IMG/VR virus record: IMGVR_UViG_3300045975_000128
Coordinates: 1-36,336 of that record
From: a virus
Strand: one strand, 5' to 3'
Length of the DNA: 36,336 bases
The first letter of the stretch is position 1; every line of letters begins with the position of its first letter. Below are positions 10,570 through 36,336 of this stretch, piece by piece. The position numbers were made by a program, and so were the translations under genes. The notes beneath the pieces are model-generated. The model saw nothing but the letters and a program-made list of their open reading frames with translations, did no database searches and was not told where the DNA came from.

Positions 10570-12090
10570 CTAGTAATACTCCAGCTTTCTCACGTAGGTT
10601 TTTTTGAAGTCCTCATCGTCATCATTCATGGTGCCGATCCAGCCACCGAGACGGAACCGCTGCATCGCCATGGTGACGGTATCGACGTAATCGTCATGCT
10701 CTCCGGCGGGGAAGGCGGCACATTCCTCAATCACCTCCTGCGCCCACGACTTCATCTTTGGCGCATAGACCATTTCGGATGCGAAAATATCGGTGACCGA
10801 GTTGACGCGGCTGATCTTGTCGTTGGGATTGCCGGTGCCGCCCCTACCCACCACCACGTCCTGTATCGGGATGTTCATCATCCGCATCTCGTAGATCAGC
10901 GGATGTCCCGCTCCCCGCGCTTCGATCAGGCAGATGTCCGGCTCCCACTCCTCGTAGTGCTGCTTCGCTCTCCGCTTCAGTTCCGGAAACTCCCACTTGC
11001 CCCGGATCGCATCCAGCAGGATCAGCTTGCTCTTCCCGTCGTCTTCTTCGTCTGAGAAAACGCCCCAAGTAGTACAGGCTGAATAGTCGGCTCTGGTCGT
11101 GTTTGAGAAGGCGGTGTCCCAAGATTGGATAATGGTGTCGCATTTCGGTGGCTTCGGCTTGTCCCAGTTCTGCCAGTAGTCGCGCTTGATCAGCGCCCCC
11201 TCTTCCGAGATCGGGTTCTGCTGGTACTGGGCGTTCCATTTGGACAGCGGGATCGACGCCTTGGTGCGGAGCAGTTCCTCCAGCGACCAGTATTCCGGCC
11301 AGATCGGTTTGCCGGAAGGCAGGATGGCGGGTAGCTGGACGATCTCCCACTGATCGGAGTGCTCGTCGGCCATCTGTTTCTTCAGAAGCTGTCCTGTAAG
11401 ATCGCGGAGCGACCACCGTGTCATGACCACGATGATCGCTCCACCCGGCTGAAGGCGTTGGCGGGGGCCACCTTCATACCAAGACATCACCCTGTCGTAG
11501 ACTTCAGGGTTGCTCTCACCGATTACGGCATCCTGCTCCGACAGCGGATCGTCTATGATAAAAAGGTCTGAGCCCTTACCGGCTACTGCACCCCCAGTTC
11601 CGATTGCAAAGTATTCGCCACCCTTGTTGGTGGACCAGCGGCCAGCCGCCTTGTTGTCCGGTGACAGGCTGACACTGGGAAATAATGCCTGAAAATCATC
11701 CCTATCGATGAGTGCCCTCACCTTTCTGCCGAAGCCGACCGCCAACTCTGCCGTGTGGGACGACTGGATGACCCTCTTGTTGGGGAAGCGGCCAAGGAAG
11801 AAGGCCGGTAGGTAGACGGAAGCGAACTCGCTCTTGGTGTGCCGGGGCGGCATGTTGATGATGATCCGCTTCTTGCGACCGGCGATCACGTCATCGAACA
11901 GTTCAGAGATAATGCGGTGGTGTGACCCCTCAACGAAGTCAGGCCACATGGTTTTGACGAACGGCAGGAAATGGGTCCGCGCATTCAGCTTGGCGCGGGT
12001 GCGGGTCAGTTCGTCCAGTAAGTCGAGGACTTCCTTCTGCTTGTCGAGCGGAAGCCCGCTGACCCGAAGCAGCAACTCGTCATAGTTCAT
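10570..12090 (-). CDS. terL: Terminase large subunit (ATPase and nuclease)
   Basis: 506 residues. ATPase domain: Walker A PPRHTKS at residues 81-87, Walker B LFIIDDP at 176-182 and coupling motif MTRW at 223-226. RNase H-like nuclease domain: acidic residues in SWDTAF (D325), LIEARGAG (E390) and EHDDYVDTV (about D466-D470). The protein cuts concatemeric DNA and drives packaging through the portal encoded next to it. A hairpin lies just upstream of the ATG and no clear ribosome binding site is visible, so translation initiation may be weak. Confidence 0.93.
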   Translation of the reverse strand: MNYDELLLRVSGLPLDKQKEVLDLLDELTRTRAKLNARTHFLPFVKTMWPDFVEGSHHRIISELFDDVIAGRKKRIIINMPPRHTKSEFASVYLPAFFLGRFPNKRVIQSSHTAELAVGFGRKVRALIDRDDFQALFPSVSLSPDNKAAGRWSTNKGGEYFAIGTGGAVAGKGSDLFIIDDPLSEQDAVIGESNPEVYDRVMSWYEGGPRQRLQPGGAIIVVMTRWSLRDLTGQLLKKQMADEHSDQWEIVQLPAILPSGKPIWPEYWSLEELLRTKASIPLSKWNAQYQQNPISEEGALIKRDYWQNWDKPKPPKCDTIIQSWDTAFSNTTRADYSACTTWGVFSDEEDDGKSKLILLDAIRGKWEFPELKRRAKQHYEEWEPDICLIEARGAGHPLIYEMRMMNIPIQDVVVGRGGTGNPNDKISRVNSVTDIFASEMVYAPKMKSWAQEVIEECAAFPAGEHDDYVDTVTMAMQRFRLGGWIGTMNDDDEDFKKTYVRKLEYY

Positions 12091-12098
12091 GAAATGAA

Positions 12099-12120
12099 AA
12101 GGGCCGCATGAGCGGCCCTT
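12099..12120 (-). terminator. Hairpin terminator upstream of terL
   Basis: A perfect 9-bp stem AAGGGCCGC / GCGGCCCTT with loop ATGA; on the minus strand it continues TTCATTTC, a weak U-tract. It ends nine bases before the terL start codon, so it probably lowers read-through from the virion/lysis genes into terL or forms a structured leader. Confidence 0.55.
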
Positions 12121-12185
12121 CCATAGGGACGTAGGGGTTTATGGTACGCCTACAGGGTACAGCCCCTTGACGGGGATGGGAAGTG

Positions 12186-12530
12186 CTAGACGTTCTCGAC
12201 GTTGGCGTCCTCTTTTTCGATGACCTCCTTGGTCATCGGTTCGCCTTGGCTCACCTCGTCACCGGCACCGACATTCTGCTGCGGCTCGCGCTTGTCGATG
12301 AAGACATAGCCGGTGTTGGTGGGAATTTCCTCGTCGGTAAAACCAGCCTGTCTGTACTGGCGTTCGGCATTGCGCCGCTTCTGGAGTGCCGCAACATCCT
12401 CCTCGCCGTCATAGGTGCGGGAAATCTGAGCGCCTACATCGTAATATTCGGCATCTGCCGCTTCACGGGCTTCGTTCTCAGCCTGCATCTGTTCATCGAC
12501 ACTGCCGGGTCCGGCTCTGGTCGTGGCCAT
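12186..12530 (-). CDS. Hypothetical acidic phage protein
   Basis: 114 residues, highly charged and acidic, with predicted helices around ENEAREAADAEYYDVG and ALQKRRNAERQYRQAGFTDE. Its stop precedes the terL terminator. The segment containing DGEEDVAAL resembles the QTFDGEANVANI stretch of the TIG protein at 12796-13299, both preceding a helical piece. No known family recognised. A virion or assembly role is possible from position. Confidence 0.6.
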   Translation of the reverse strand: MATTRAGPGSVDEQMQAENEAREAADAEYYDVGAQISRTYDGEEDVAALQKRRNAERQYRQAGFTDEEIPTNTGYVFIDKREPQQNVGAGDEVSQGEPMTKEVIEKEDANVENV

Positions 12531-12815: not shown

Positions 12816-13299
12816 TGGTTGGTTCCTCTTCGTTTTCAGGCAGGAAGGTGAAGGTCTTCTGGTCCGTCTGATAGCTGCCCTGCTGCACCCAGACCGGGAA
12901 TGACCCTGCGACTTCGGCAGTCGATGGCTTGACGGTCGTCCTTAACTGGTCGCTGCTGATGAAGGTCGTTGGTTCAATACCGCCGTTGAAATAGATAATG
13001 CTCGTCTCGGTGAATTTGTTGCCATTGACGTTCATTTCCACATCGGCAGAACCAATTCTGGCGCTCGACGGATTGATACTATTAAGCACCGGCTCCTCGC
13101 CCGGTTCCGGGTCGGGCGGCAGCGGTGGCTGCGGCGTGTAACCGGGGGGCCATGGCAGGCCATTCTGGAGATAGACGCGGCGCTGGTTGTTGGCCTTGAT
13201 GATGTTGGCGACATTGGCCTCGCCATCAAAGGTCTGGGTGGTTTCGCCAAAGCGCGGGTCACCCGGCGTTATCGGCGGCATGCTCTCGTTCTCTGCCAT
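12796..13299 (-). CDS. IPT/TIG (Ig-like) domain protein
   Basis: 167 residues. Residues about 85-155 form a TIG-type Ig-like fold: PVLNSINPSSARIGSAD, then VNGNKFTETSIIYFNGG and LRTTVKPSTAEVAGSFPVWV. A Pro-rich linker (PPLPPDPEPGEEP) precedes it. Ig-like domains in phages commonly decorate virions and bind surface carbohydrate. A second, smaller TIG-like gene lies directly upstream and overlaps by 41 bases. The surface role is inferred. Confidence 0.7.
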   Translation of the reverse strand: MAENESMPPITPGDPRFGETTQTFDGEANVANIIKANNQRRVYLQNGLPWPPGYTPQPPLPPDPEPGEEPVLNSINPSSARIGSADVEMNVNGNKFTETSIIYFNGGIEPTTFISSDQLRTTVKPSTAEVAGSFPVWVQQGSYQTDQKTFTFLPENEEEPTNGQPAE

Positions 13300-14006: not shown

Positions 14007-14203
14007 TGAACCCTCCATAAACGAAGGGGATCGCGGAGGAGCCAACCCCGACACGATCCCCAACCTTCAACCGCCTGAAAGGAGCGGTTGCGGTGAAGCT
14101 TACCACGCTCAAGGAGAGGGAGGAAAGCCGGGGCGGACAAACCTCCCCCTCAGTGGCCTCCTGTGAAACTGCTGTTCGGGCACATCACTCAGGCTCGTCC
14201 AGT

Positions 14204-17822: not shown

Positions 17823-18228
17823 ATTTGTGAAATTTTGGATCGGGTGTCCGGGTTAGTATGTATCGCGTGACGCACACGCGCCTGCACGCGCGGGGGCTAC
17901 GTATGGGTGGGGGGTAGTACCCCCCACCATGCGCACATACTACATGTGGGGTCCATGCCCTACGACCCTGTGTCCTGATTATCCAATGAAATCAATGGGT
18001 TAGTGTACATCTAAGTGATTGTAGTGATAGCGAACTGCACTCGAAGAGTGCACAGATTACAGTGTCACCCCATTGTTGTTGTCTCATTCTCTCTCTTACA
18101 TCTTGATGTAAGAGAACCAGTGCTATCCCCTTATCCCCTCCTCTCACCATGTACCCTCAGTACCCTTAAGGGACTGAGGTGTGTGTGGTGATTGGCCTTC
18201 CATTGTCTTGGTGCCGACAGTCATCTCG
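17823..18228. other. Non-coding regulatory gap with strong inverted repeats
   Basis: About 400 bases without a convincing gene. It holds CGCGTG/CACGCG (about 17866), a near-perfect GC palindrome at 17906-17928 with an 11-bp arm and one central base, TGCACTC GAA GAGTGCA near 18034-18052, and an 11-bp stem at 18092-18115 (TCTCTTACATC / GATGTAAGAGA). A CCCTTAAGGG palindrome with flanking CAGT/ACTG follows near 18158. It separates the minus-strand regulators from the small-terminase-like gene. Any promoter here is not clear. Confidence 0.5.
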
Positions 18229-18813
18229 CTACTCGACATCTTCGATGTCTCCGTTGCTCTTTCCGGGCGAAACCTCTTGGGCATCAGGAAGAACCCTTGG
18301 TTCTGGATGTGAAACATGTTCGATGGTTTCATGCCGAAAGAGTTCGCGAAGTTTGCTTCGCAATTCCAGTTCCACTTCCTCCGGCCTTCTCTCCGTCCTG
18401 TCTTCGACAGAGCGAACCTCTCGAAACATCGAAACCAGATCGATTTTGCCTAAGGCAATCAATGCGGCGATCCGTTCCGATGGCTTCGCGTCTTCTCTCC
18501 GGCTTTCTTTCATCAAGCCGGAGAACACGTGCCGACGAATGGCCACGGCATCCCGATGCATAGCCTTCTCCTGCTCCGTAAGGAGCATTTCCACCCTATG
18601 TTTGATCTTGTCCTGCTTCATCAGCTTGGATGCCGAGACATTGACCGTCGATGACTTACCGCCCGCACTGTAAGTAGCGCGGTAAGCTGCCGAGAGCGTC
18701 TCTCCCCGAGCCACCAATTGCGCGAAAGCTTCCTGCCTTGGTGTGAGATCGGAGGCCAGTCTGGTCGGCAAACCAAGGCTTTGTCGTAAACTGTTTTGCG
18801 GCATAACGGTCAC
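18229..18813 (-). CDS. Terminase small subunit-like protein
   Basis: 194 residues from GTG 18813 (or ATG 18804). LTPRQEAFAQLVARGETLSA then YRATYSAGGKSSTVNVSASK reproduce the helix-turn-helix start of many small terminases (LT-KQE-F---...AYR-AY), followed by a helical middle and acidic C-terminus. It should recognise packaging DNA and work with TerL. Odd: it lies 6 kb from terL and next to the transcription switch. The coding sequence is rich in short inverted repeats, such as GCGAAG TTTG CTTCGC and TCTCCGGCTT/AAGCCGGAGA. Confidence 0.65.
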   Translation of the reverse strand: MTVMPQNSLRQSLGLPTRLASDLTPRQEAFAQLVARGETLSAAYRATYSAGGKSSTVNVSASKLMKQDKIKHRVEMLLTEQEKAMHRDAVAIRRHVFSGLMKESRREDAKPSERIAALIALGKIDLVSMFREVRSVEDRTERRPEEVELELRSKLRELFRHETIEHVSHPEPRVLPDAQEVSPGKSNGDIEDVE

Positions 18814-18842
18814 CGTGTCCTAAACCCTATGGGGGTTTAGAA

Positions 18843-18872
18843 ATTCTAGTCAGAACCCCGATGATTTGCCAA
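18843..18872 (-). promoter_or_regulatory. Candidate promoter for the small-terminase-like gene
   Basis: On the minus strand TTGGCA (18872-18867) and TAGAAT (18848-18843) are 18 bases apart. The expected transcript starts with an 8-bp hairpin CTAAACCC/GGGTTTAG (18823-18843). Consensus match only. Confidence 0.45.
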
Positions 18873-19354
18873 GTGGTCCGGCTCCAATACCCAAGGGGAT
18901 TGGAGCGTCTGCGGGGGCGCATCATGCCCGCATCATGACGCGAGTTTTCTTCACGCCTGTTTCCCTACGCATTATGCGCAGGAGAAATCGCGCATGGAAA
19001 AAGGCTTGCCATTTGTCGTCCGGTTTGGGATTGTTTGGGGGTCGAAAGCAGGATTGCTCCGACAGCGGAAAGCCGGATGGCTCCCGCCAAAAAGCATCTC
19101 TCCGGAGAAACCGGGGGCCGCAAGCACCGCTGTGAAGCGAAGCTTGGTGAAGGCAGAACAAATCCGGACAGTTTTGCGGCGATCATGGATAACGAAGTGA
19201 TCGAAAGTCAGCGAAGCTGGTCGTGGCAAAGAGCAATCTTGTGATGCTTTGCCGCCCACACTCCTCCTCACGATTGCTGCGGGATCAAGCTGCAAACTCA
19301 GCAAAAGCTGAAAGGCGAAGCTTGGTCCTTCAACAATCCTGAAAGGATTACGTT
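18873..19354. other. Divergent intergenic region
   Basis: About 480 bases between the minus-strand terminase-like gene and the first plus-strand gene. No gene is convincing. It contains several inverted repeats (CTCCAAT.CCC AAG GGG.ATTGGAG near 18884-18907, TCTCCGGAGA near 19101, TCAGC AAAA GCTGA near 19298, AATCC TGAAA GGATT near 19336). A plus-strand promoter must lie here, but I could not identify one by consensus. Confidence 0.4.
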
Positions 19355-19960
19355 ATGACGAAAACTGCCAAAACCGTTGCCAAGTCGGAAGTCTCCTCCC
19401 GTGAGGAGCTGCTCGCCAGCGTCTCACAGTTTGAATTTCAAACTTGTGAGATCGTCGGCGGACGGAATTTCCCCATTGGGGAGAAATTCGACTGCATCAA
19501 GGTCGGGGTTTCCGGCTACGGCAAGCCCTACACGGTCATCTCCGTCAACGGAGAAGACCGGTTCTGCGATCCGAAGAACCTCAAGGTTCTTAAGCCGATG
19601 ACCGAAGCCAAGATCGCCGCCGCTAAAGCGGCGCTGGAAGAGGCAAAAGAGGCAACCCTGATCGTCGGCGGAACCATCAAGAATGAGAGTGAGAAAGCAG
19701 TTCTCATCTCTCATCATGGCTGGTTCAAGCCGAAGTGGTTTCCCAAGTCTCTGGTCACCAAGATTGGTGACCATGAAGACGGCGAGCAGAACCTCTATGA
19801 GGTTCCTCGTTGGAAAATCCATGCCGATCATGGTCCGGCTGGCGTGAAGGCTCTCGCGGCACTCCAAGATGGCTATGAAGCCATGTTGGAGCCGGAAGAA
19901 AAGCCGGAACCCAAGGTCGTCGTCCGTACCGGTAAGTATACCGGTAAGGTCAAGAAGTGA
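19355..19960 (+). CDS. Phage protein, first gene of the hairpin-rich polycistron
   Basis: 201 residues. An Ala/Lys-rich start is followed by a beta-rich middle (YGKPYTVISVNGEDRFC) and by GTIKNESEKAVLISHHGWFK with RWKIHADHGPAGVKALAALQ; basic C-terminus. No known family. Its ribosome binding site (AAAGGA) differs from the next genes. The coding sequence carries many short hairpins: CTCCTC CCGT GAGGAG (19393-19408), TCTCCG TCAA CGGAGA (19539-19554), 19683-19714 and a 9-bp stem at 19752-19773. That is far denser than in other regions. Confidence 0.65.
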   Translation: MTKTAKTVAKSEVSSREELLASVSQFEFQTCEIVGGRNFPIGEKFDCIKVGVSGYGKPYTVISVNGEDRFCDPKNLKVLKPMTEAKIAAAKAALEEAKEATLIVGGTIKNESEKAVLISHHGWFKPKWFPKSLVTKIGDHEDGEQNLYEVPRWKIHADHGPAGVKALAALQDGYEAMLEPEEKPEPKVVVRTGKYTGKVKK

Positions 19961-19967
19961 TCTCTGA

Positions 19968-20030
19968 AAAATCGCATGACCTCCCCTCCGAAAGGAGGGG
20001 AGAGCGGGCGATTTTGCCCTGAATGAGGAG
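19968..20030 (+). promoter_or_regulatory. Repeated structured leader, copy 1
   Basis: Outer stem AAAATCGC (19968-19975) / GCGATTTT (20008-20015), then an inner 9-bp stem CTCCCCTCC GAAA GGAGGGGAG (19981-20002). GGGC (20006-20009) can instead pair with GCCC (20016-20019) across the 3' arm of the outer stem. GAGGAG (20025-20030) precedes the ATG at 20039 by eight bases. The A/T to G/C changes in the outer stem keep pairing relative to copies 2, 4 and 5. Confidence 0.75.
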
Positions 20031-20038
20031 CCAACAAA

Positions 20039-20215
20039 ATGCCATTTGATCCCAATGATCTCGCTGAAATGCTCTTGGTAAAAGAGCACTTCATCGATGA
20101 GCGAAACTTCGCCATGTCGATGCGGGATTGGCCGAAAGTTTCTGTCATCCGACAGAAACTCAAGCACGTTGAAAACCGGATTGCTTCGATCCGGTTTCAG
20201 CAAAAGACCGCCTGA
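20039..20215 (+). CDS. 58-residue phage protein, unknown
   Basis: ATG 20039, TGA 20213-20215; too short to catch easily, but it has the standard GAGGAG site of this cluster. The product begins MPFDPNDLAEMLLVKEHFID and ends with IRQKLKHVENRIASIRF, probably two or three helices. The 177 bases hold four hairpins: 20070-20088, 20101-20112, a perfect 10-bp stem at 20137-20160 and a 9-bp stem at 20173-20197. No family recognised. Confidence 0.6.
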   Translation: MPFDPNDLAEMLLVKEHFIDERNFAMSMRDWPKVSVIRQKLKHVENRIASIRFQQKTA

Positions 20216-20276
20216 GAAATTGCATGGGATGGGGTCCACTGGACCCCATTACGGGCAATTTCGCCCTTTTGAGGAG
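20216..20276 (+). promoter_or_regulatory. Repeated structured leader, copy 2
   Basis: Outer stem GAAATTGC (20216-20223) / GCAATTTC (20255-20262), perfect 8 bp. Inner stem ATGGGGTCC ACT GGACCCCAT (20229-20249), unrelated in sequence to copy 1. GGGC/GCCC (20253-20256, 20263-20266) and GAGGAG (20271-20276) as in the others, then ATG at 20282. Confidence 0.8.
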
Positions 20277-20281
20277 CCAAA

Positions 20282-20536
20282 ATGCAAGTTCTCACGAAAG
20301 CACAGAAACTCGCTTTGAAGCGAGTTTTTGATCGGACGCCTCTTTTCGTCCTTTGGGACGGAAAGTGCTTCATGCCGACTTCCACCGAAGGGTGGAATGC
20401 TCACAAGAGACTGGATCAACCGACAATGACCTACCGGTCATTTCGGTACACCGCAGTCACCAGCTTTGGGACGTTAATCGTCCCATGGTGTGGAATGTGG
20501 CTGGCCATCGAAACCGATGGCTACACCCACTCTTAG
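20282..20536 (+). CDS. Conserved small phage protein, unknown
   Basis: 84 residues. MQVLTKAQKLALKRVFDRTP, the MTYRSFR segment and GTLIVPWCGMWLAIETDGYT belong to a phage protein type I recall from many siphovirus- and podovirus-like genomes, without an assigned function. The coding sequence has at least six hairpins, including a 10-bp stem at 20306-20327, TTCCACC GAAG GGTGGAA (20380-20397), AATGACC TACC GGTCATT (20425-20442) and GCCATCG AAAC CGATGGC (20504-20521). Preceded and followed by the repeated leader. Confidence 0.7.
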   Translation: MQVLTKAQKLALKRVFDRTPLFVLWDGKCFMPTSTEGWNAHKRLDQPTMTYRSFRYTAVTSFGTLIVPWCGMWLAIETDGYTHS

Positions 20537-20601
20537 AGATCGCATGATATCTCCTCCGACTTGTCGGAGGGGATAGCGGGCAATCTCGCCCTATTGAGGA
20601 G
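20536..20601 (+). promoter_or_regulatory. Repeated structured leader, copy 3
   Basis: Outer stem GAGATCGC (20536-20543) / GCAATCTC (20580-20587) with one C-A mismatch. Inner stem ATCTCCTCCGAC / GTCGGAGGGGAT (20549-20574), 12 bp with one U-G pair. GGGC/GCCC and GAGGAG (20596-20601) are kept; ATG at 20608. The element begins at the last base of the upstream stop codon. Confidence 0.75.
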
Positions 20602-20607
20602 CCAAAA

Positions 20608-20943
20608 ATGGTTGGAATGCTGAACATCGGTACAGTGTCCCATGGGACACTGCGTCCGCAAGATTTGCTCCGTAGGTTTTCCCAAACCTACGAGCAATAC
20701 TTCAGCGATGAAACGGATTACAATCCGTTTCTTTACATGGCAGCTAACTTGTTAGCTGCCACTCTGGATGATCTCGAAGGAGATCATGTTGCCGACCACA
20801 TCTATGAGCATGTCGATTATACAATCGACAAGCTTATAGAGAAGCTGGAAGGCTTGGCTTCCCGTCATAACTGTTACTTCGGAACCACCGAAGGTGACGG
20901 TTCGGATTTCGGCTTCTGGCCGAATGAAGGCGGCGAAGCTTAG
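20608..20943 (+). CDS. Conserved small phage protein, most hairpin-rich coding sequence
   Basis: 111 residues: NIGTVSHGTLRPQDLLRRF, a helical middle (MAANLLAATLDDLEGDHV) and a C-terminal CYFGTTEGDGSDFGFWPNE. The last motif recurs in a small phage family of unknown function. In 336 bases there are stems at 20633-20652 (9 bp), 20671-20692 (9), 20710-20731 (9), 20738-20761 (11), 20768-20787 (8), 20811-20830 (8) and 20831-20846 (5). Codon choice seems fitted to pairing. Role unknown. Confidence 0.65.
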   Translation: MVGMLNIGTVSHGTLRPQDLLRRFSQTYEQYFSDETDYNPFLYMAANLLAATLDDLEGDHVADHIYEHVDYTIDKLIEKLEGLASRHNCYFGTTEGDGSDFGFWPNEGGEA

Positions 20944-21010
20944 GAATTGCATGACTTCCCCACTGAGAAATCAGTGGGGAATGCGGGCAATTCCGCCCTG
21001 AATTGAGGAG
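20943..21010 (+). promoter_or_regulatory. Repeated structured leader, copy 4
   Basis: Outer stem GGAATTGC (20943-20950) / GCAATTCC (20987-20994), perfect and covarying at the second base relative to copies 2 and 5. Inner stem TTCCCCACTGA GAAA TCAGTGGGGAA (20956-20981), 11 bp with a GAAA tetraloop. GGGC/GCCC and GAGGAG (21005-21010) kept; ATG at 21016. Confidence 0.8.
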
Positions 21011-21015
21011 CCAAG

Positions 21016-21237
21016 ATGACTGAAAGAGCACAACTTTTCGCCCAGAGACTTCGTGATCTGGACGAATGCATTGCTGAAAGCAAGGCATCGGAACACTACG
21101 ATCCGAAAAACGACTACTGGACCCATCTCAAAGAGATGGAAATTCAGGCTTTCGCCAAAGGCGATGGTGTCGTTTGGCGGGTCAATGACCGGCCTTACAT
21201 CGTCTTCGATACCATCGATAGCCGATGGTATTCCTGA
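21016..21237 (+). CDS. Small phage protein, unknown
   Basis: 73 residues. A helical charged N-terminus (AQLFAQRLRDLDECIAESKA) is followed by KGDGVVWRVNDRPYIVFDTI, a small beta piece. No family recognised. Hairpins in the coding sequence include CCATCTC AAA GAGATGG (21123-21139) and a 9-bp stem ATACCATCG/CGATGGTAT (21209-21231). Preceded and followed by leader copies 4 and 5. Confidence 0.65.
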   Translation: MTERAQLFAQRLRDLDECIAESKASEHYDPKNDYWTHLKEMEIQAFAKGDGVVWRVNDRPYIVFDTIDSRWYS

Positions 21238-21299
21238 GAAATTGCATGGGATGCCCTCTCTCAGAGAGGGCATTACGGGCAATTTCGCCCTTTGAGGAG
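21238..21299 (+). promoter_or_regulatory. Repeated structured leader, copy 5
   Basis: Outer stem GAAATTGC (21238-21245) / GCAATTTC (21279-21286), perfect. Inner stem ATGCCCTCTC TCA GAGAGGGCAT (21251-21273), 10 bp. GGGC/GCCC and GAGGAG (21294-21299) kept; ATG at 21306. Same outer stem as copy 2 but a different inner stem. Confidence 0.8.
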
Positions 21300-21305
21300 C
21301 CAAAC

Positions 21306-21485
21306 ATGATCCTGCTTTGGATATCGACATATATGTCGATCTTCACGATGGGAATTCTTGCCATCATTGTGGGGACTTCCCCACAATTCGGTTGGCCGGA
21401 ATATTCCGCCACCATTCTTGCGATACTTTTCGGTATCGGCGCAGCAACGACGTTGCTGGAAATTGGTCGGAGGGAACGTCGATGA
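21306..21485 (+). CDS. 59-residue membrane protein
   Basis: ATG 21306, TGA 21483-21485. The protein has two hydrophobic segments, MILLWISTYMSIFTMGILAI and ATILAILFGIGAATTLL, with a short PQFGWPEY loop and a basic end RRERR: a two-TM inner-membrane protein. The coding sequence carries a 9-bp stem at 21366-21387, the palindrome ATCGACATATATGTCGAT (21323-21340) and CAGCAACG A CGTTGCTG (21442-21458). Next gene starts in its stop codon. Function unknown. Confidence 0.6.
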   Translation: MILLWISTYMSIFTMGILAIIVGTSPQFGWPEYSATILAILFGIGAATTLLEIGRRERR

Positions 21486-21565
21486 TCTACATTCTTGTTC
21501 CAGTGATAGCTTTGCTATCGTGGTACATCGTTTATCTCGAAACAACGAAAGGAGATCGCAAATGA
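21482..21565 (+). CDS. 27-residue membrane micro-protein
   Basis: ATG at 21482 overlaps the upstream TGA (ATGA). The product MIYILVPVIALLSWYIVYLE then TTKGDRK has one TM segment and a basic tail. Its TGA overlaps the next ATG (21562). It contains GATAGC TTT GCTATC. Coupling on both sides argues for translation. It may pair with the two-TM protein upstream. Confidence 0.55.
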   Translation: MIYILVPVIALLSWYIVYLETTKGDRK

Positions 21566-21867
21566 AATGTCTCCACTTCGTTGGTTTCACCAACGAAGAA
21601 CAAATCAGGAAGGCTTCCCGAATATTCGGGGAGCCTCATTTCATACATCCCAAATGGGATGTCAGAGCCGAGCAAGAATTGGATGTAGACGATGTAATCG
21701 TCTACGCCAATGGAACACCGAGGAGAGCGGAAGAACGTGAGTTCTTCCTGAGTGTGGGCGGCAAGCAAGGGGGTGGGCGCATGATGCGCCTGCCCCCTTT
21801 TTTTTGCTCAAAATTCAGCTACTATCGCAGACATGCGCTACATACCCGGATACGAAGAACGCTATAG
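21562..21867 (+). CDS. Small phage protein whose frame runs through a terminator
   Basis: ATG 21562 with GGAGAT upstream. The first 65 or so residues (MKCLHFVGFTNEEQIRKASR, FGEPHFIHPKWDVRA, LDVDDVIVYANG) look like a complete small domain seen in other phages. The remaining 35 residues are read through the terminator and into the HNH gene (MMRLPPFFCSKFSYYRR) and look unnatural, so the native stop may have been lost. Stems at 21576-21598 (10 bp), 21611-21636 (13 bp), 21685-21705 and 21729-21748. Confidence 0.5.
   Translation: MKCLHFVGFTNEEQIRKASRIFGEPHFIHPKWDVRAEQELDVDDVIVYANGTPRRAEEREFFLSVGGKQGGGRMMRLPPFFCSKFSYYRRHALHTRIRRTL
21768..21805 (+). terminator. Strong intrinsic terminator of the hairpin-rich polycistron
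   Basis: A 14-bp stem AGGGGGTGGGCGCA / TGCGCCTGCCCCCT with two G-U pairs and a TGA loop, followed by eight T residues. It is the best terminator in the window and ends the cluster before the HNH gene. Confidence 0.85.
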
Positions 21868-22180
21868 AATAGATCAAAACGGCAATGTTTTCTGTAATCA
21901 TAAGAATAGATTTCTGAAACCAACCCTGCACCCTTCAGGGTATCTATTTGTGTCTCTAGCAAAAGGGACAAAAAATTATCCATTGCGAAAGCAATACAAG
22001 ATCAATTACTTAGTCGCACTTACTTATATCGGACCAAGGCCAAAGGGCTTGGTCTGTTGCCACAATGATGGGAACAAACTCAACAATCACCTCTCGAATA
22101 TCAGATGGGACACCCAAAAATCGAACATCCACGATGCAATCGTGGCCGGTACGTTTACCGGGCGACCACGTAAGCACTAG
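21833..22180 (+). CDS. HNH endonuclease (homing type)
   Basis: 115 residues. Start MRYIPGYEERYRIDQNGNVF is a NUMOD4-like piece, followed by LKPTLHPSGYLFVSLAK and the HNH core VCCHNDGNKLNNHLSNIRWD (His, Asn and Asn residues) ending TQKSNIHDAI. Such genes are mobile and insert between phage genes. AT-richer than its neighbours. It lies directly after the terminator and overlaps the open end of the previous frame, consistent with insertion. It also holds stems such as CCACGAT GCA ATCGTGG (22129-22145). Confidence 0.85.
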   Translation: MRYIPGYEERYRIDQNGNVFCNHKNRFLKPTLHPSGYLFVSLAKGTKNYPLRKQYKINYLVALTYIGPRPKGLVCCHNDGNKLNNHLSNIRWDTQKSNIHDAIVAGTFTGRPRKH

Positions 22181-22308
22181 TTTTTTCGCGCACGCGCGTG
22201 GGGGGGCAGCAGACACGCGATCCCGGTACTTAATCGTCCGGTCCCAAAAAAGCGATTTTCCAAAAGACCAGCTAAATCTTTGATCTGAAAGAATGTCGTG
22301 GACACACT

Positions 22309-22349
22309 AGAGGGGTGGCAAAATTCAAGAGGTATTTTTGCCCCCCTCT
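22309..22349. repeat. Strong stem-loop, possibly bidirectional terminator
   Basis: AGAGGGG-GGCAAAA (with one bulged T) pairs with TTTTGCC-CCCCTCT, about 14 bp, loop TTCAAGAGGTA-like. A run of A on one arm and T on the other could support termination in either direction. Confidence 0.55.
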
Positions 22350-22463
22350 CAAATGTCAAATCCTACCCATACCCCCCATAGGTAGGAAAAAACTGGCGAA
22401 ATGCCTGTCAAAGCGTTGATCTTAAAGATGCGGACGCTGTGGACGGTTCAATCCGTACACATT

Positions 22464-22526
22464 CTGGCTGGCCAAAAAGCAGAAAGGCTCTCGCAACATT
22501 GGCCGAAGCCAGTCACGGAGCCTTTC
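22464..22526 (+). ncRNA. Candidate pseudoknot
   Basis: CTGGCTGGCCA (22464-22474) pairs with TGGCC-GA-AGCCAG (22500-22512), 11 bp with a bulge; GAAAGGCTC (22482-22490), inside that loop, pairs with GAGCCTTTC (22518-22526), 9 bp outside it. The two helices interlock as in an H-type pseudoknot. Transcription of the region is not shown. Confidence 0.4.
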
Positions 22527-30695: not shown

Positions 30696-31366
30696 TGATG
30701 GATCGTGAGAGGGCAGTCCTGACCTTCAAGGATATCAGGACACTCAAGCGGATGATGTCGGCGTATAGCGCCGACATCAAAGACGTAAGGCGCGGCAAAT
30801 CGTGGAACGTCGAGCACGAGATCAGGGGGCTCTGTGAGCGCATGAAGCTGATGCGCAAGGGACAGCGGGACCGCTCCGCTGATCCTTTGCAAGTCAAGAA
30901 AAGCTTCGCTCTCAATGCCGAGAAGGATATCAAGAGATGCCTGACGGACATATGTAGCAAGCGCAAGTTCAACGAAACAATTATCGTAGGAGGAAAAGAC
31001 ACAGGAACATGTGAATACAAGGAGGGGATTAACCGATACTCCAAGCCTACAGTAACGCTGTGCGTAGGGCATATGTGGTATCGCAATGTCTTCAAGAACA
31101 TCTACGACCACAATCGGCTGGTCCAGAATGATTACATCATCCTGTCAGCCGTCGAGTACCGGACCAATGTGCCGCATGTCAGGCTCTACGAGGCTGTCGC
31201 TTACGGCATCAGCGAGAAGGGACAAGTGAACGGCTGGATCGGCCAGTCGAAACTGGGTGAGCAACTCTGTTCCTTCAGGACAGACAAGCAAGCCGCAATC
31301 CAAGCAGCGCAAAGGCTGACAGTCAGGTCAGTCAATGAACAAATATCAGGAGAAACAAATGGCTAG
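30695..31366 (+). CDS. Phage protein, unknown
   Basis: About 223 residues from ATG 30695 or 30698, overlapping the VWA stop. A basic helical N-terminus (TLKRMMSAYSADIKDVRRGK), then CSKRKFNETIIVGGKDTGTC and a beta-rich body (YIILSAVEYRTNVPHVRLY), with a Gln/Ala helix AAIQAAQRLT near the end. No family recognised. AT-richer and different in codon use from its neighbours. It overlaps the ParB-like gene by 8 bases. Confidence 0.6.
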   Translation: MMDRERAVLTFKDIRTLKRMMSAYSADIKDVRRGKSWNVEHEIRGLCERMKLMRKGQRDRSADPLQVKKSFALNAEKDIKRCLTDICSKRKFNETIIVGGKDTGTCEYKEGINRYSKPTVTLCVGHMWYRNVFKNIYDHNRLVQNDYIILSAVEYRTNVPHVRLYEAVAYGISEKGQVNGWIGQSKLGEQLCSFRTDKQAAIQAAQRLTVRSVNEQISGETNG

Positions 31367-32492
31367 CATCATCGAAAGCATCAAGGCAGCGGAAGCAGAG
31401 GCTATGGAACCCAAGATCAATCCCGAATTCAGAGACTTGCTCGACATCCAGTCGGAGGTTTCCTACGAGGAACTGAAGAAGATGATCGAAGCGGAGGGTA
31501 TTCGCGATCCCATCGTCGTATGGGCAGAGCAGAACGTGATTGCGGACGGTCATAACCGTTTCAAGATCGCCAAGGAACTGGGCATCGAATGCCCACGAGT
31601 GGACAAGTCCTTTGCCGACGAGGCCGAGGTCAAGACGTGGATCATTCGCAACCAGTTGGGGCGGCGCAACCTCACTCCGGCACGCTTCGAATACTACATC
31701 GGCAAACTCTACAACGAGCAGAAGGCTGAGACTGCACAGGAAAAGCAGGAAGGCGGCGGCAACGTTGCCGAGAAGCTGGCGGCTGAATTCGAAGTGTCGG
31801 AGAAGACCGTTCGTCGCTACGGCACCAATGCCAAGGGCATCGACGCCATCGAACGCATCCGTGGCAAGCTTGAGAAGAACAAGCAGTTGTCGAACAAGCC
31901 GACCTACACCAGTGAGGAAGTCGCCGTCATCGGACAGGCTCCCAACACCACGGTTGCGGCGAAGACCCTGAAGAACATCGATGACTATAAGAAGCAGAAG
32001 GCAGAGAAGAAGCAGGAAGACAAGGCTATCAAGGCTGCTGTGGTGGACAAGCAGACCTACTACGGTGTCGCCCTGTGTGAGCCAGACTTCTCCGCTTCCG
32101 GTTTCTCCATCTCGACAGAGCCGAAGCCGACGCTCGACAAGAACGCCGCCTGCTATGTGATCGTGCCGGATGAGTGGCTGGCCGAGGGCATCAAGCTTCT
32201 CGACAAGTGGGGTCTGCGCTACGAGGCCAGCTTCATCTACTGGTCATCGGCCAAGATCGATGACGGTCAGTTCTCCAAGATCGTCCATCGCAACGTGTTG
32301 CTGGCGACCAAGGGCCAGATCACCGGACCCAAGGCAGGGCAGGAAGCATCCTCCTGTGTCCTGCTCAACGGTGATATCGGTCCTGCCGTGGTCAAGCTGA
32401 TCGACAGCTACCACAACGGCAACACCAAGAAGCTGGACATGCGCCGTGGTGCCAAGGCCAACGGCAATTGGGAGATCGTCTCCGTCAAGTGA
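31359..32492 (+). CDS. ParB-like N-terminus fused to a degenerate MT-A70-like domain
   Basis: 377 residues from ATG 31359, with AGGAGA upstream. N-terminal ParB/sulfiredoxin fold with GIRDP (47-51) and DGHNR (63-67), helix-turn-helix NVAEKLAAEFEVSEKTVRRY (135-154), charged linker, then an MT-A70-like adenine methyltransferase fold (CYVIVPDEWLAEGIKLLDKW and RYEASFIYW). The catalytic DPPW motif is replaced by CEPDF (240-244), so methylation is unlikely. It may bind DNA or protect sites without methylating. The fold call is from remembered patterns. Confidence 0.65.
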   Translation: MASIIESIKAAEAEAMEPKINPEFRDLLDIQSEVSYEELKKMIEAEGIRDPIVVWAEQNVIADGHNRFKIAKELGIECPRVDKSFADEAEVKTWIIRNQLGRRNLTPARFEYYIGKLYNEQKAETAQEKQEGGGNVAEKLAAEFEVSEKTVRRYGTNAKGIDAIERIRGKLEKNKQLSNKPTYTSEEVAVIGQAPNTTVAAKTLKNIDDYKKQKAEKKQEDKAIKAAVVDKQTYYGVALCEPDFSASGFSISTEPKPTLDKNAACYVIVPDEWLAEGIKLLDKWGLRYEASFIYWSSAKIDDGQFSKIVHRNVLLATKGQITGPKAGQEASSCVLLNGDIGPAVVKLIDSYHNGNTKKLDMRRGAKANGNWEIVSVK

Positions 32493-32503
32493 TTGGGTAG
32501 CGA

Positions 32504-32524
32504 GGGGCCGGTTCGTCCGGCCCC
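32504..32524 (+). terminator. Hairpin after the ParB-like gene
   Basis: GGGGCCGG TTCGT CCGGCCCC, a perfect 8-bp stem, starts 12 bases after the stop. No T-run follows, so termination would be weak; it may protect the 3' end. Confidence 0.4.
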
Positions 32525-32555
32525 TGTCTGAGCAATCACGCTCAAGGGGTAGACC

Positions 32556-32738
32556 ATGACCAAGAAAGAACAAGCCGCCGCTCTGCGCAAGCAGATCGAA
32601 TACCTCAAGCTGACCGAGGGCGCGAAGCTGTTCAATCTCACCGAACGCTATCGCGAGAACTCCAAGCGGGCCATCGCCTTCAGGAAGAAGATCGACCGAC
32701 TGGAGACTGAAATCGAGAAACTAGAGGGGGGCAAATGA
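32556..32738 (+). CDS. Small coiled-coil protein
   Basis: 60 residues, almost fully helical and charged (MTKKEQAAALRKQIEYLKLT, then FRKKIDRLETEIEKLEGGK) with heptad-like Leu/Ile spacing, so a short coiled coil. An AGGGGT-type site lies upstream. It overlaps the next ATG by four bases. No specific function. Confidence 0.65.
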   Translation: MTKKEQAAALRKQIEYLKLTEGAKLFNLTERYRENSKRAIAFRKKIDRLETEIEKLEGGK

Positions 32739-32911
32739 AGAAGTTCAAGTGGACCGAGGAGGAAGACCAACTGCTGCGGCAGTTGGCGCAGCAGAAGGTG
32801 GCGCTTGGCTTGATCGCACACAAGCTGCGGCGCTCACGACCAGCCGTCATAGCACGGGCAACCAAACTGAAGGTGCCACTCATCCACACTGGGAATGGCT
32901 CTCTGCCGTAA
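32735..32911 (+). CDS. Small Myb/GcrA-like DNA-binding protein
   Basis: 58 residues; ATG 32735, TAA 32909-32911. FKWTEEEDQLLRQLAQQKVA then LGLIAHKLRRSRPAVIARAT is the Myb/SANT-like helix-turn-helix also found in alphaproteobacterial GcrA. It is only the DNA-binding part; the sigma-binding GcrA tail is missing. It may redirect host GcrA or act alone. AGAGGGG upstream. Confidence 0.65.
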   Translation: MKKFKWTEEEDQLLRQLAQQKVALGLIAHKLRRSRPAVIARATKLKVPLIHTGNGSLP

Positions 32912-32968
32912 CCGATTTGTAGGGAGAATTTGAAAATTTTGCGCAAAATTTAGAGCAGGGGTAGCAAC

Positions 32969-34081
32969 ATGATGGTTCTCGACACAGCTTTGGCGCATGG
33001 CGTGATGCTGACCAACGGCATCAAGCAAAAGCTTAAGTATCTCAAACCGTTCACGAGGCGTTTCGTTTTCAACGCCGACGCATCACACAAGCAGGGACGC
33101 TTCGCGATGGAAGCGGCAGACACCATCTGCCGCAACGCCAACTACATCGTGAAGCCGTATCCCAACACGTACATTGAGATCGACAATCACGCCTGTATCA
33201 GGGGCGCGAAGAACGATGTGATGTTCGGTGCCGATGAGAGGATCGGCTACCTGTGGACGGAGTACGGGCAGTGCTTCGTCTGCTACGGCAGCGGACACAA
33301 GGCAGAGTGGTCGCCCTTCGTCTATGCACAGCACGGCACGGGCGGTGATGGCGACCGGCTGTGGGAAATCTACGACAAGCAGATCGTCCAGCTTGATGAC
33401 AGCATGGACGATGAACGGATGACCTACGCCCGGTTCAAGCAGTACCTCATGATCGGACAGGTCGCTCCTGATCTGAGGCCGGACGTAAACAAGTTCTCCC
33501 ACAATCTCACCGATCTCTATGAGATTGGTCTGGCCAGATCAGATATCCCAATGGAGGTTCTTGAGGCGGCATTCAACGAGAACATCGGCACCTACAAATA
33601 TGCACTGGCATGCCTGATGCTGCTGGATGAGAGGATCAAGCGGCAGCTTGTCCACGTCCCGGCCACACGCAAAGTGATACAGGGCAAGCTGACTGCCGTC
33701 GCCAAGCATGACGTGGTGACCATCGATCTTGATGTGCCGACGATCCGCAAGGTCTATGCCAAAACCGCTCATCAGGGAGGGCACCAAATCGAACATGATG
33801 TGTCCGAACACTGGGTCTATTACGACTGCTCGACGCAGTGCCAGCATGACTGGCAACCCTTCACCTCAGAGGAAGCGACCGAACGTGACCTGAAGTACGG
33901 GCACAAGGAACCACTGCGCCGTGAAGTCTGCTCCGACTGCGGCGGACGGCGCACCCGCAAGCCATCCTATGTGGCGGGCGATCCCAAGAAGGGATCGACG
34001 GTCGGCAAGAAGCGATACCGGGTGATCGCAAGCCAAGAGAAGAACGTTATCAACGTGGACTTCAAGAAGAGGAAGGGATGA
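32969..34081 (+). CDS. Phage protein with Cys-containing C-terminus, unknown
   Basis: 370 residues. N-terminus LKPFTRRFVFNADASHKQGR, beta-rich middle, and a C-terminal IEHDVSEHWVYYDCSTQCQH with CSDCGGRRTRK, likely a zinc-binding end. SEHWVYYD matches the HWxxxx region of a phage family of unknown function seen before. AGGGGT lies before the ATG. The stop TGA overlaps the next start. Function unknown. Confidence 0.65.
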   Translation: MMVLDTALAHGVMLTNGIKQKLKYLKPFTRRFVFNADASHKQGRFAMEAADTICRNANYIVKPYPNTYIEIDNHACIRGAKNDVMFGADERIGYLWTEYGQCFVCYGSGHKAEWSPFVYAQHGTGGDGDRLWEIYDKQIVQLDDSMDDERMTYARFKQYLMIGQVAPDLRPDVNKFSHNLTDLYEIGLARSDIPMEVLEAAFNENIGTYKYALACLMLLDERIKRQLVHVPATRKVIQGKLTAVAKHDVVTIDLDVPTIRKVYAKTAHQGGHQIEHDVSEHWVYYDCSTQCQHDWQPFTSEEATERDLKYGHKEPLRREVCSDCGGRRTRKPSYVAGDPKKGSTVGKKRYRVIASQEKNVINVDFKKRKG

Positions 34082-34461: not shown

Positions 34462-34924
34462 GCACGCCGTCCAGTGCCCGCACGCATGTGCGCAGACACG
34501 TTACATCGAAGGGCCACGGAATATCCAAGAGAACCAGATCGATAAGAGCGATGCGGTACTGCTTGCCCATCGCCTTATCCATTCCCTTAACGATGTAACA
34601 GACAGACATCACTGCATTGGCTTTTCGTGCAGCTATCCGTGACGGATCGCTGTGTGCCACGCCGTTGAAGTCGGGCGACTTCAGCCCGACGAACGTCGCC
34701 CGATGCAACTTATGTAGCAAAGCGACGAGCAGACTGTACTCAACCGCACTGATGGTATCATTCAGCAGCAGCCGGTCGATCTCGCTGTCGTCCAAGACCT
34801 TGCCTTGGTATCCATTCGAAGCCGTGAGTTTGGGTACGACAGTGAACCGTTTCGCCAGTTCAGGCGAACCGTAATCAGTAGCGACGATTGAAGAGGTTTT
34901 CTGTTTCGATGAACTCTTCCCCAT
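34376..34924 (-). CDS. Phage protein, unknown, overlapping neighbours at both ends
   Basis: 182 residues from ATG 34924. The middle EIDRLLLNDTISAVEYSLLV and AARKANAVMSVCYIVKGMDK is helical; the C-terminus is Pro/Ser-rich. The 3' 86 bases are antisense to the HEIAH gene and the 5' 50 bases overlap the primase-helicase. A longer start at 34978 is possible. No family recognised. Lying behind the helicase, it may be replication-linked. Confidence 0.5.
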   Translation of the reverse strand: MGKSSSKQKTSSIVATDYGSPELAKRFTVVPKLTASNGYQGKVLDDSEIDRLLLNDTISAVEYSLLVALLHKLHRATFVGLKSPDFNGVAHSDPSRIAARKANAVMSVCYIVKGMDKAMGKQYRIALIDLVLLDIPWPFDVTCLRTCVRALDGVLTEPRSQTSVPQISLTPQSPAPAKAVGR

Positions 34925-36336
34925 CACGCGCTTCCCGATAACTGGTTGGCCCATTGGGGGAGTATGGATGAAGGTCATCCATGATGTCTGTCAAGTAGGT
35001 ATTGGTGGCGGTGTCGTAGAGGATTTCACACTCACCCTCTTTACCCATCCAGTCGTAGCGGGTCTTCCAGTTGATGAACTTCACCACTCCCGGCTTGTCG
35101 GGCACACGATAGACGGTCAGTCCGAAGTCCGCCTTGGAATACCAAGCTGCCGATCCCGACACATGATAGCCGCGCGGCGGCGGATAGTTGCCGTCCCTGT
35201 CCGGCATCAGCTTGGTCGGATGGGCGATCAGCCACAGATGAATGCCGTGGTACTGCGCCGTCAGGCGCAGCGTCGTCAGCATGTCATCGATCCACTGGGT
35301 TTCGTTCACATCCTTGGTCGGGCGGGCAATGTAATTGTAGGGATCGATCACCGCACCGGAGATGCCCCACCGGAACACTGCTGTCTTGATGCGCTCGACA
35401 ATGGAAGCCAGTGAAGCCTTCTGCCCATCGTCCTGCGACAGGAACTTGAAGTGCTCGTTGATGAACGGCAGGCAGTCTTCCAGTTCCCGCTTGCTCATCC
35501 GCTCACCCGCCCTATCCGTCTCAAAGAAATGCTTTTGGGTCAGCATCTCCGCAAGCTTGGCGATATGAACGTGGATGGGGTTCTCAAATGAACAGATGGC
35601 GAACGACTGTCCGTGCCGACGCGCGAGATTGAGCATGAACTGGTCCACCATCGTGGACTTGCCGTGACCGGGGATGCCGGTGAGGATCGTCAACAGGCCG
35701 GGACCACACGAGTAAAGGTCATCGATGGGTGGCATGCCCGTGAGAATGCGTTCCCCAAGTCCGTCGTCGTATAGCTTGGTCACGTTGCCCGCAAACGCAG
35801 AGGCTTCGTACAACCCTTCAATGGGCCACGGCTCTGCCAGTTCCACACATGTCCTAAGTCTTTCCCCACCATGCTTTAACAGGACATCGTTAGCATCCTT
35901 GCAATCGTCCGGAAATGCAACCCTCCAGCAACGGTGCTTGCCGATGCGGCGGGCCAGTTCCTCTGCAAGTTTGGTGCCGGGTTCGTCTGCGTCACTGGCA
36001 ATGACGATGCGCTTGGCTGCATCCATCTTTTCTTTGGCTGACCACAGGAACGCCATCGTCGTCTTGATGTCGGTGCCTTCGTCTCTGGTAAAACTGGATG
36101 AGCCATTAGGCACGGAGGTGGCGTTGGCTACGCCAGCCTCACCGAAGGAGAGCATGTCCATCTCACCTTCGCAGATGATGAAGTCGCTGTTCTTCTCCAT
36201 GTCCACCAGTTGCAGCCCGCACAATGAACCCAGCGTGGTGTCACAAGTGTTCGCCTTCTCAGCCATGCAGCGGACCTTGTGCCCCTGCACTCTGCCATTA
36301 ACGATATACGGGAATGCGACAGCCCAATCCTCACGC
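34875..36336 (-). CDS. DNA primase-helicase (T7 gp4-like), 5' end beyond the window
   Basis: The frame stays open to the right edge and codes there for REDWAVAFPYIVNGRV, so the N-terminus (zinc-binding primase part) lies outside. Visible: TOPRIM motifs IICEGEMDMLSFGEAG and IASDADEPG, then a RecA-type helicase domain with Walker A GIPGHGKST (about residue 205 counting from the GTG at 36290), and AVIDPYNY and HLWLIAHPTKL as later motifs. Joins primase and helicase at the replication fork. Minus strand, opposite to the neighbours. Confidence 0.88.
   Translation of the reverse strand, partial: REDWAVAFPYIVNGRVQGHKVRCMAEKANTCDTTLGSLCGLQLVDMEKNSDFIICEGEMDMLSFGEAGVANATSVPNGSSSFTRDEGTDIKTTMAFLWSAKEKMDAAKRIVIASDADEPGTKLAEELARRIGKHRCWRVAFPDDCKDANDVLLKHGGERLRTCVELAEPWPIEGLYEASAFAGNVTKLYDDGLGERILTGMPPIDDLYSCGPGLLTILTGIPGHGKSTMVDQFMLNLARRHGQSFAICSFENPIHVHIAKLAEMLTQKHFFETDRAGERMSKRELEDCLPFINEHFKFLSQDDGQKASLASIVERIKTAVFRWGISGAVIDPYNYIARPTKDVNETQWIDDMLTTLRLTAQYHGIHLWLIAHPTKLMPDRDGNYPPPRGYHVSGSAAWYSKADFGLTVYRVPDKPGVVKFINWKTRYDWMGKEGECEILYDTATNTYLTDIMDDLHPYSPNGPTSYREARDGEEFIETENLFNRRY

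Follow-up and report, generated by a model that had tools for sequence, protein, structure and literature searches.

Why should a run of small genes in a viral operon be preceded, gap after gap, by a leader whose shape is kept while its sequence is not? The question is raised by a record of 36,336 bases from a tailed double-stranded DNA phage (IMG/VR record IMGVR_UViG_3300045975_000128), the whole of which is called the window here. An earlier note had placed five structured leaders of shared architecture in this DNA, and all five lie where it put them, within 19968-21303 and each directly before a small gene (E1 to E5, Table 1). The element runs X6-GC, ATG, a variable hairpin, CGG, GC-X6', GCCC, a short linker, GAGGAGCCAA and the start codon; that is, an 8-bp outer stem, GCATG, an inner hairpin, a CGGGC-n6-GCCC block and GAGGAGCCAA, with the stems forming two segments around an internal loop and comprising 17-20 pairs in all (8 outer and 9-12 inner). 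A scan for GAGGAGCCAA with up to one mismatch gave eight matches against 2.68 expected: exact sequences at all five leaders and once more at 14036, and sites one mismatch away at 12819 and 13584.

The finer claims of the earlier note need some adjustment. The outer stem is perfect in four of the five window copies, the exception being E3, which has one C-A mismatch there and one U-G pair in its inner stem. The inner hairpins, described as unrelated, have some features in common: E2 and E5 share flanks and those of E1, E3 and E4 are C-rich. The element was said to begin at or just after the upstream stop codon: the 5' arm follows it directly in E2 and E5 and overlaps its last base in E3 and E4, whereas seven bases intervene in E1. 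Two further copies are carried by L008, a 12.5-kb syntenic phage contig found by a viral-contig pattern scan that returned 10 stretches; it has four shared genes at 40-77% protein identity. In both L008 copies the arm again overlaps the last one or two bases of the stop codon, so that abutment or overlap holds in six of seven copies.

The central claim, that structure and not sequence is conserved and that the stems covary, is borne out by the five window leaders and the two L008 copies taken together. Across these seven, 98.3% of 119 stem cells are paired. Column shuffles reach 82.3% and slid controls 44-59%; reading the structure from the very sequences under test favours it over the slid controls, and the shuffles ignore relatedness. 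Seventeen cells are double-changed compared with 4.2 in column shuffles, both sides have changed in 12 of the 17 stem pairs, and none of 500 shuffles matched either the pairing or the double-change value. The conserved feature of the leaders is their structure, maintained with compensatory changes, and they provide a case in which such changes indicate structure over a protein-binding sequence. The earlier note had tied its proposal to further copies and to covariation, both of which were found.

As it had also anticipated, no Rfam family corresponds to the element: at the gathering score of Rfam 15 there are no matches in the window, L322, L323 or L008, and lax thresholds over 19300-22200 gave seven sub-gathering matches, the best with an E value of 0.021. 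A known ribozyme or riboswitch was rejected for lack of a match at the gathering score. A leader peptide was likewise rejected, since by eye the ATG of GCATG opens frames of unequal length without a shared product, that of E5 entering the gene.

Three of the small proteins have relatives, at 30, 49 and 70% identity, in a further phage, L323, which comes from a 48.6-kb record. In four gaps of its homologous operon (L323:5243-6337) stands a different repeated leader: a hairpin of 8-10 bp with a GAAA loop and, in tandem with it, a second of 11 bp are followed by a linker and a GAGGAG start site; the linker has CTCTTGCGA in two gaps and part of CTCTTGCGA in the other two. In L008, a single hairpin with a GAAA loop occupies the first gap. 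Because L323 and this gap have leaders of their own, a structured leader per gene can be said to recur, with a design that differs between phages. By eye, a GAAA loop caps seven of 12 leader hairpins (the five window inner hairpins, two from L008, the first hairpin of the four L323 gaps and that of the first gap of L008). Counted as independent, three genomes show the tiling described below and two the exact leader; L002 and L007 come from contigs of the same virus as the window (a match of at least 99.99% over shared stretches) and were left out of this count.

A structural filter over 317 sequences found all four marks of the leader in six distinct sequences, namely the five window copies and one from L008; the other 289 sequences carried fewer (three in L169) and, from the first 40, were taken as chance. 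Because GG is required before the 3' arm, the filter is blind to copies of the GAGC kind, including the other L008 copy. None of 68 stretches from a genome-contig pattern scan had all four marks. The model R1, run over 63 and 88 sources, recovered the copies already described together with their antisense images. It gave six weak matches besides, which were taken as chance, four of them (L010, L001, L003 and L009; E 0.0003 to 0.57) preselected by the GGGC...GAGGAGCCAA pattern and the others being L346 (E 0.8) and L403 (E 0.3); it found no further leader copies elsewhere in the window. In 397 genomes of the order of G005 neither R1 nor the alignment of the 84-amino-acid (aa) protein had a match, an empty result that is uninformative on absence.

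These data bear on the idea that the leaders are mobile or gene-converted REP-type intergenic repeats, spread within each phage and without a role in expression. Copies within a genome are indeed more alike than orthologous gaps are: the L008 copies share their inner hairpin, E2 and E5 share flanks and L323 has a family of its own. However, the copies have a single orientation and a nearly fixed geometry relative to the stop codon and the Shine-Dalgarno (SD) sequence, their stems differ by compensated changes, and no other copies were seen in the window or the searched sources, all of which makes such an origin highly improbable.

The five leaders are the intergenic part of a larger hairpin-tiled mRNA. 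When perfect hairpins are defined by an arm of 7 or more and a loop of 3-8, there are 22 in 19501-21000 and 11 in 21001-22500, against 0.53 and 0.6 in dinucleotide shuffles; the highest counts per 1.5 kb elsewhere in the window are 6 (31501-33000, 0.47 expected) and 4 (18001-19500 and 34501-36000). Most of the tiling hairpins lie inside genes, and their number exceeds that in synonymous-codon shuffles, which preserve protein and codon usage (300 shuffles; 100 for the minus-strand gene set): 27 versus 1.95 in the window operon (seven coding stretches, the last cut at 21738), 24 versus 2.1 in L008 (six stretches) and 12 versus 1.45 in L323 (five stretches). The controls show no such excess, with 3 versus 3.0 in nine plus-strand open reading frames to the right of the operon and 3 versus 2.1 in four minus-strand window genes. 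In all three phages 22-23% of bases are in arms and the median spacing is 55-67 nt. In 13 of 18 start regions no such hairpin falls between -20 and +3 (a plain count, without chance comparison). Neither the packing of the coding sequences nor the likely placement of the n6 block in two exclusive helices (see below) figured in the earlier note, whose original observation is right and more interesting than first reported.

The excess structure is concentrated in one operon and is not genome-wide. A density survey of 3.45 Mb of sequence, duplicates included, found 14-15 hairpins with arms of 8 or more per 1.5 kb in the window phage, L008 and L323 only; no other locus exceeds 7, against a mean of 0.46. 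The dense run ends at a terminator-like site in both the window and L323, past which there are single hairpins only (in the window at 22129, 22976 and 23569; in L323 at 7361, where the hairpin is terminator-like too). Within the dense run of L008, a 145-aa gene has six hairpins (11844-12189), compared with one in the HNH gene past the window terminator, homology between these two genes not being established. No second zone of like density occurs in the examined stretches of the longer records G001 and G004, and no comparable tiling in three plasmid loci or in five phage loci with a homologue of the 84-aa protein (five of the 11 records matched); one of these eight loci, L386, has five hairpins in one kilobase. 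The six hairpins of L460 come from TA/CT simple repeats. Tiling is also absent from 49-50 kb of the 58-62 kb of phages HTVC027P, HTVC023P and DSL-LC04, where the maximum per 1.5 kb is 2, 4 and 3 long hairpins, respectively. Moderately dense perfect hairpins were noted at two other viral loci, L180:3292-4349 (7 per 1.5 kb) and L364:5422-6893 (6).

The observations are the leader structure with its covariation, its placement at stop codons, and a tiling that stops at the terminator; the leaders are best read as a repeated cis-acting RNA at the cistron boundaries of a structured mRNA that acts on start-site access or decay, a reading to which we give roughly even credence. RNA rather than DNA is probably the acting form; protection from decay falls a little short of an even prospect, and a coupling of translation is put forward tentatively. 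The cis-acting RNA of the earlier note stands as the best reading; its suggestion that the element sets translation or processing goes further than the folding calculation for an SD switch, whose outcome is mixed.

Several observations weigh against this reading. The exact leader is known from two phages only, L008 has it before two of five downstream genes, and the window frames from 21482 and 21562 have none. G-U pairs are nearly absent from the leaders (1 of 117 standard cells). In the coding hairpins, double changes that restore pairing do not exceed chance (5 vs. 5.2; 11 vs. 5.7), and synonymous identity between the window and L008 is about the same in arms as outside them (0.53 vs. 0.52). 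No hairpin centres coincide between the window and L323 (0 of 19). Coding stems with a single G-T number 5 (null 2.4) beside the 63 perfect ones; this scarcity, like that of G-U in the leaders, is not what RNA-level selection would predict. Between L323 and the window, changes fall much more heavily on one of the two arms (mean 0.40 against a null of 0.24, standard deviation 0.06, eight hairpins), as in cases of 10 versus 4 and 1 versus 6 changes.

Part of this evidence would fit a mutational by-product, in which replication, through local template switching, continually produces short, perfect inverted repeats of little function. Local template switching that makes perfect inverted repeats has been published for RNA genes, according to the accessible part of that report (PMC8794818). 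There are 63 perfect stems (null 5.5), 51 of which have loops of 3-4 nt (null 47%); by comparison, 2 stems have one A-C (null 2.9) and 13 another mismatch (null 6.4). The unequal change of arms and the fast turnover of hairpins between phages, seen also in the coding hairpins of the window and L008, point the same way. Yet the asymmetry is not seen in four window/L008 hairpin comparisons and is weak between L323 and L008 (0.31 vs. 0.22); six of 19 window hairpins have centres within three bases of one in L008 (null 1.14), some through inherited unchanged sequence, as do two of 15 between L008 and L323 (null 0.57); and the tiling is limited to one transcription unit in three diverged phages. 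Moreover, 53 of 63 stems lie in phases that allow wobble bases to form the stem (null 70%). This preference, together with the halt of the tiling at the terminator and the mostly hairpin-free start regions, disfavours pure mutation, which we regard as improbable.

Similarly improbable is that the leaders are DNA-level elements (protein-binding sites, cruciforms, single-strand hairpins, or operators and promoters) whose RNA form is incidental. The near-perfect Watson-Crick pairing would suit them, as would the fact that both outer-stem departures are C-A and not U-G, and the small strand signal among one-mismatch stems (5 GT vs. 3 AC). Since tolerated G-U would give more G-T stems, either Watson-Crick perfection is selected or the stems are perfected by a DNA process, and the scarcity of G-U pairs leaves room for a DNA-level or template-switch origin. 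On the other hand, a consensus scan found no plus-strand promoter-like site in the five leaders, a sequence-reading protein would not allow the stem sequence to vary freely, and the tiled zone stops at the terminator.

How might a cis-acting RNA of this form work? The GC-X6' bases either pair with the 5' arm or lie in and beside a second hairpin, GRGC-X6'-GCYC, which can pair in all seven copies. One L008 copy has a paired change from GGGC/GCCC to GAGC/GCTC. This is the single double change of the helix and is equalled by 80 of 500 shuffles, for which reason a second hairpin that excludes the outer stem is suggestive only. A pseudoknot with both helices together was rejected because the same GC bases are contested and the connecting loops would be empty, and the two are treated as alternatives on the same grounds. 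A ribosome at the stop codon would, given its established footprint, cover the 5' arm. When the arm is treated as covered, five of seven copies are predicted to form the GRGC hairpin (the exceptions being E1 and the GAGC copy of L008). The effect on the start site weighs against a switch: the SD is clearly opened in E3 only; E1, E4 and E5 show a small gain and the two L008 copies a mixed one. In E2 the unconstrained fold already is the alternative state, and the SD becomes less open. The geometry makes a switch flipped by the ribosome an attractive hypothesis, for which the energetic support is mixed, and it renders a ribosome-coupled mechanism testable.

Under such a mechanism, when the upstream gene is untranslated, the 5' arm, starting at its stop codon, would pair with GC-n6, leaving GCCC free and the SD region partly paired. 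A ribosome that reaches the stop codon would cover the arm, allowing GGGC-n6-GCCC to form and the next start site to open. The stable inner hairpin and the coding hairpins would keep untranslated mRNA folded and shielded from endonucleases. The fullest version, an armoured mRNA in a group of double-stranded DNA phages, whose codon choice makes a string of hairpins, whose bistable leaders are flipped by the terminating ribosome and whose message stays folded when unread, is offered as a speculation that we consider doubtful. The hairpin-tiled operon does suggest that in a DNA phage the coding sequence of a single transcription unit is under selection for structure, or keeps acquiring it, and it suggests an unusual way to protect or control a viral message; it bears on mRNA decay, translation coupling and the origin of perfect hairpins. 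No description of such a unit was found in the literature covered, with most subscription journals outside the scope of the search.

The gaps could instead be processing sites of the kind found between the early genes of T7, for RNase III in the stem or RNase E in the linker, yielding separate mRNAs with a stable hairpin at each end. Two-segment stems with an internal loop in five intercistronic gaps would fit this, and the two hairpins and linker in each of four L323 gaps make a plausible 3' guard and 5' guard. Processing nevertheless leaves the conserved GRGC-n6-GCYC block, the stop-codon position and the coding hairpins unexplained, and we think it rather unlikely.

The operon to which the cis-acting RNA would belong is short and non-structural (Table 1). 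To its left, on the minus strand, lie genes for the major head protein, portal and large terminase; the plus-strand genes to its right include an HNH endonuclease and a ParB-like protein. Large terminases with 50-53% identity to that of the window occur in Pelagibacter phages HTVC027P and HTVC023P and in phage DSL-LC04, which is listed under Gammaproteobacteria. Relatives hint at an alphaproteobacterial host. No operon protein has a Pfam family above the cut-off, and PHROG gave only weak matches to families of unknown function. The L323 homologue of the 84-aa protein matched 11 phage records (rhizobial, Agrobacterium, Rhodobacter and Roseobacter), and relatives of the 111-aa protein are encoded at 61 viral loci, a count that includes the source virus. 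The order of these two genes in the window is swapped relative to both L008 and L323. A scan of 18700-22400 gave five terminator-like sites, against 4.6 expected by chance, of which that at the operon end is the strongest and has by far the longest stem. Directly past it lies the HNH/NUMOD4 endonuclease gene (21833-22180). Elsewhere, a second cluster of perfect hairpins stands beside the small terminase gene (window 17906-18115, L008 8574-8868), where GGTGGGGGGTAGTACCCCCCACC in the window and GGTGGGGGCTAGTAGCCCCCACC in L008 look like a swapped pair; the palindrome TGTAGCTACA occurs three times in 44 bases at L008:8406-8449; and an 11-bp perfect hairpin is present at window 30753-30779, with a milder hairpin excess in 31501-33000.

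Table 1. Genes, leaders and hairpins of the operon (window positions; CDS, coding sequence)
Feature	Position	Strand	Details
Hairpin-tiled zone	19355..21765	+	33 perfect hairpins; median spacing 54.5 nt; 23% of bases in arms
201-aa gene, first of operon	19355..19960	+	weak PHROG matches of unknown function
CDS hairpins of 201-aa gene	19428, 19574, 19752, 19789, 19927	+	
Leader E1, before 58-aa gene	19968..20034	+	outer stem 19968-19975/20008-20015; inner hairpin 19981-20002 (GAAA loop); alternative hairpin 20006-20019; SD 20025-20034
58-aa gene	20039..20215	+	no family match; CDS hairpins 20070, 20137, 20173
Leader E2, before 84-aa gene	20216..20280	+	inner hairpin 20229-20249; alternative hairpin 20253-20266; SD 20271-20280
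84-aa gene	20282..20536	+	CDS hairpins 20306, 20380, 20425, 20467, 20504
Leader E3, before 111-aa gene	20536..20605	+	alternative hairpin 20578-20591
111-aa gene	20608..20943	+	CDS hairpins 20633, 20671, 20710, 20738, 20768, 20811
Leader E4, before 73-aa gene	20943..21014	+	inner hairpin 20956-20981 (GAAA loop); alternative hairpin 20985-20998
73-aa gene	21016..21237	+	CDS hairpins 21123, 21209
Leader E5, before 59-aa gene	21238..21303	+	inner hairpin 21251-21273; alternative hairpin 21277-21290
59-aa gene (ATG 21306)	21306..21485	+	membrane-like by eye; CDS hairpins 21323, 21366, 21442
Intrinsic-terminator-like hairpin	21767..21799	+	15 pairs and T run; end of operon and of hairpin-tiled zone

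The closest known kind of element is the start-associated sequences of actinobacteriophages. As far as the accessible parts of these papers go, such repeats (SAS and ESAS) were described in 2011 in cluster K mycobacteriophages, and Microbacterium cluster EF phages have like motifs; as late as 2024 and 2025 the role of the repeats was described as unclear (PMC3203893, PMC11373665, PMC12699233, PMC7302621). Like the leaders, which in five of five window copies stand directly before small genes, they lie just before the start codons of some non-structural genes, have a conserved SD-bearing end (AGGAGCC in SAS, GAGGAGCC in the leaders) and an upstream inverted repeat with a variable spacer (PMC3203893, PMC11373665, PMC7302621). 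The 13-bp SAS consensus GGGATAGGAGCCC is not matched by the leader end GAGGAGCCAA, AGGAGCC alone being common to both. The arms of ESAS have a sequence consensus and departures that do not support pairing, whereas leader stems vary with compensation. In the same texts the ESAS authors find little support for mRNA hairpins and prefer DNA-binding sites (PMC3203893, PMC11373665, PMC12699233, PMC7302621), and later work places putative, Sigma-70-like promoters in ESAS (PMC3203893, PMC11373665), unlike the leaders. Because of their compensated stems and the lack of a promoter-like match, the leaders are not filed as SAS/ESAS, from which a likely second exclusive hairpin and hairpin-tiled genes also set them apart. 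Cluster EG phages, and Cluster O phages as cited there, have intergenic inverted repeats typically 14-22 bp before start codons, but these share one conserved 18-bp sequence (PMC7302621), whereas leader stem sequence is free.

Compared with REP/BIME repeats, the leader alignment has no GTAG-type tag by eye, and model R1 found no dispersed copies in the window. In T7 early mRNA, intercistronic RNase III sites form stems with internal loops, to which the two-segment leader stems between genes are alike; to our knowledge the T7 sites have no alternative helix, no tie to a stop codon and no tiling of coding sequence. Positive-strand RNA viruses have genome-scale ordered RNA structure, with pervasive pairing of coding RNA beyond the expectation from sequence order. 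The operon resembles them in that the structure of its coding sequence exceeds sequence-order controls, by hairpin counts and not folding energies, and differs in that the structure is found in a double-stranded DNA phage, in one operon and as perfect short hairpins.

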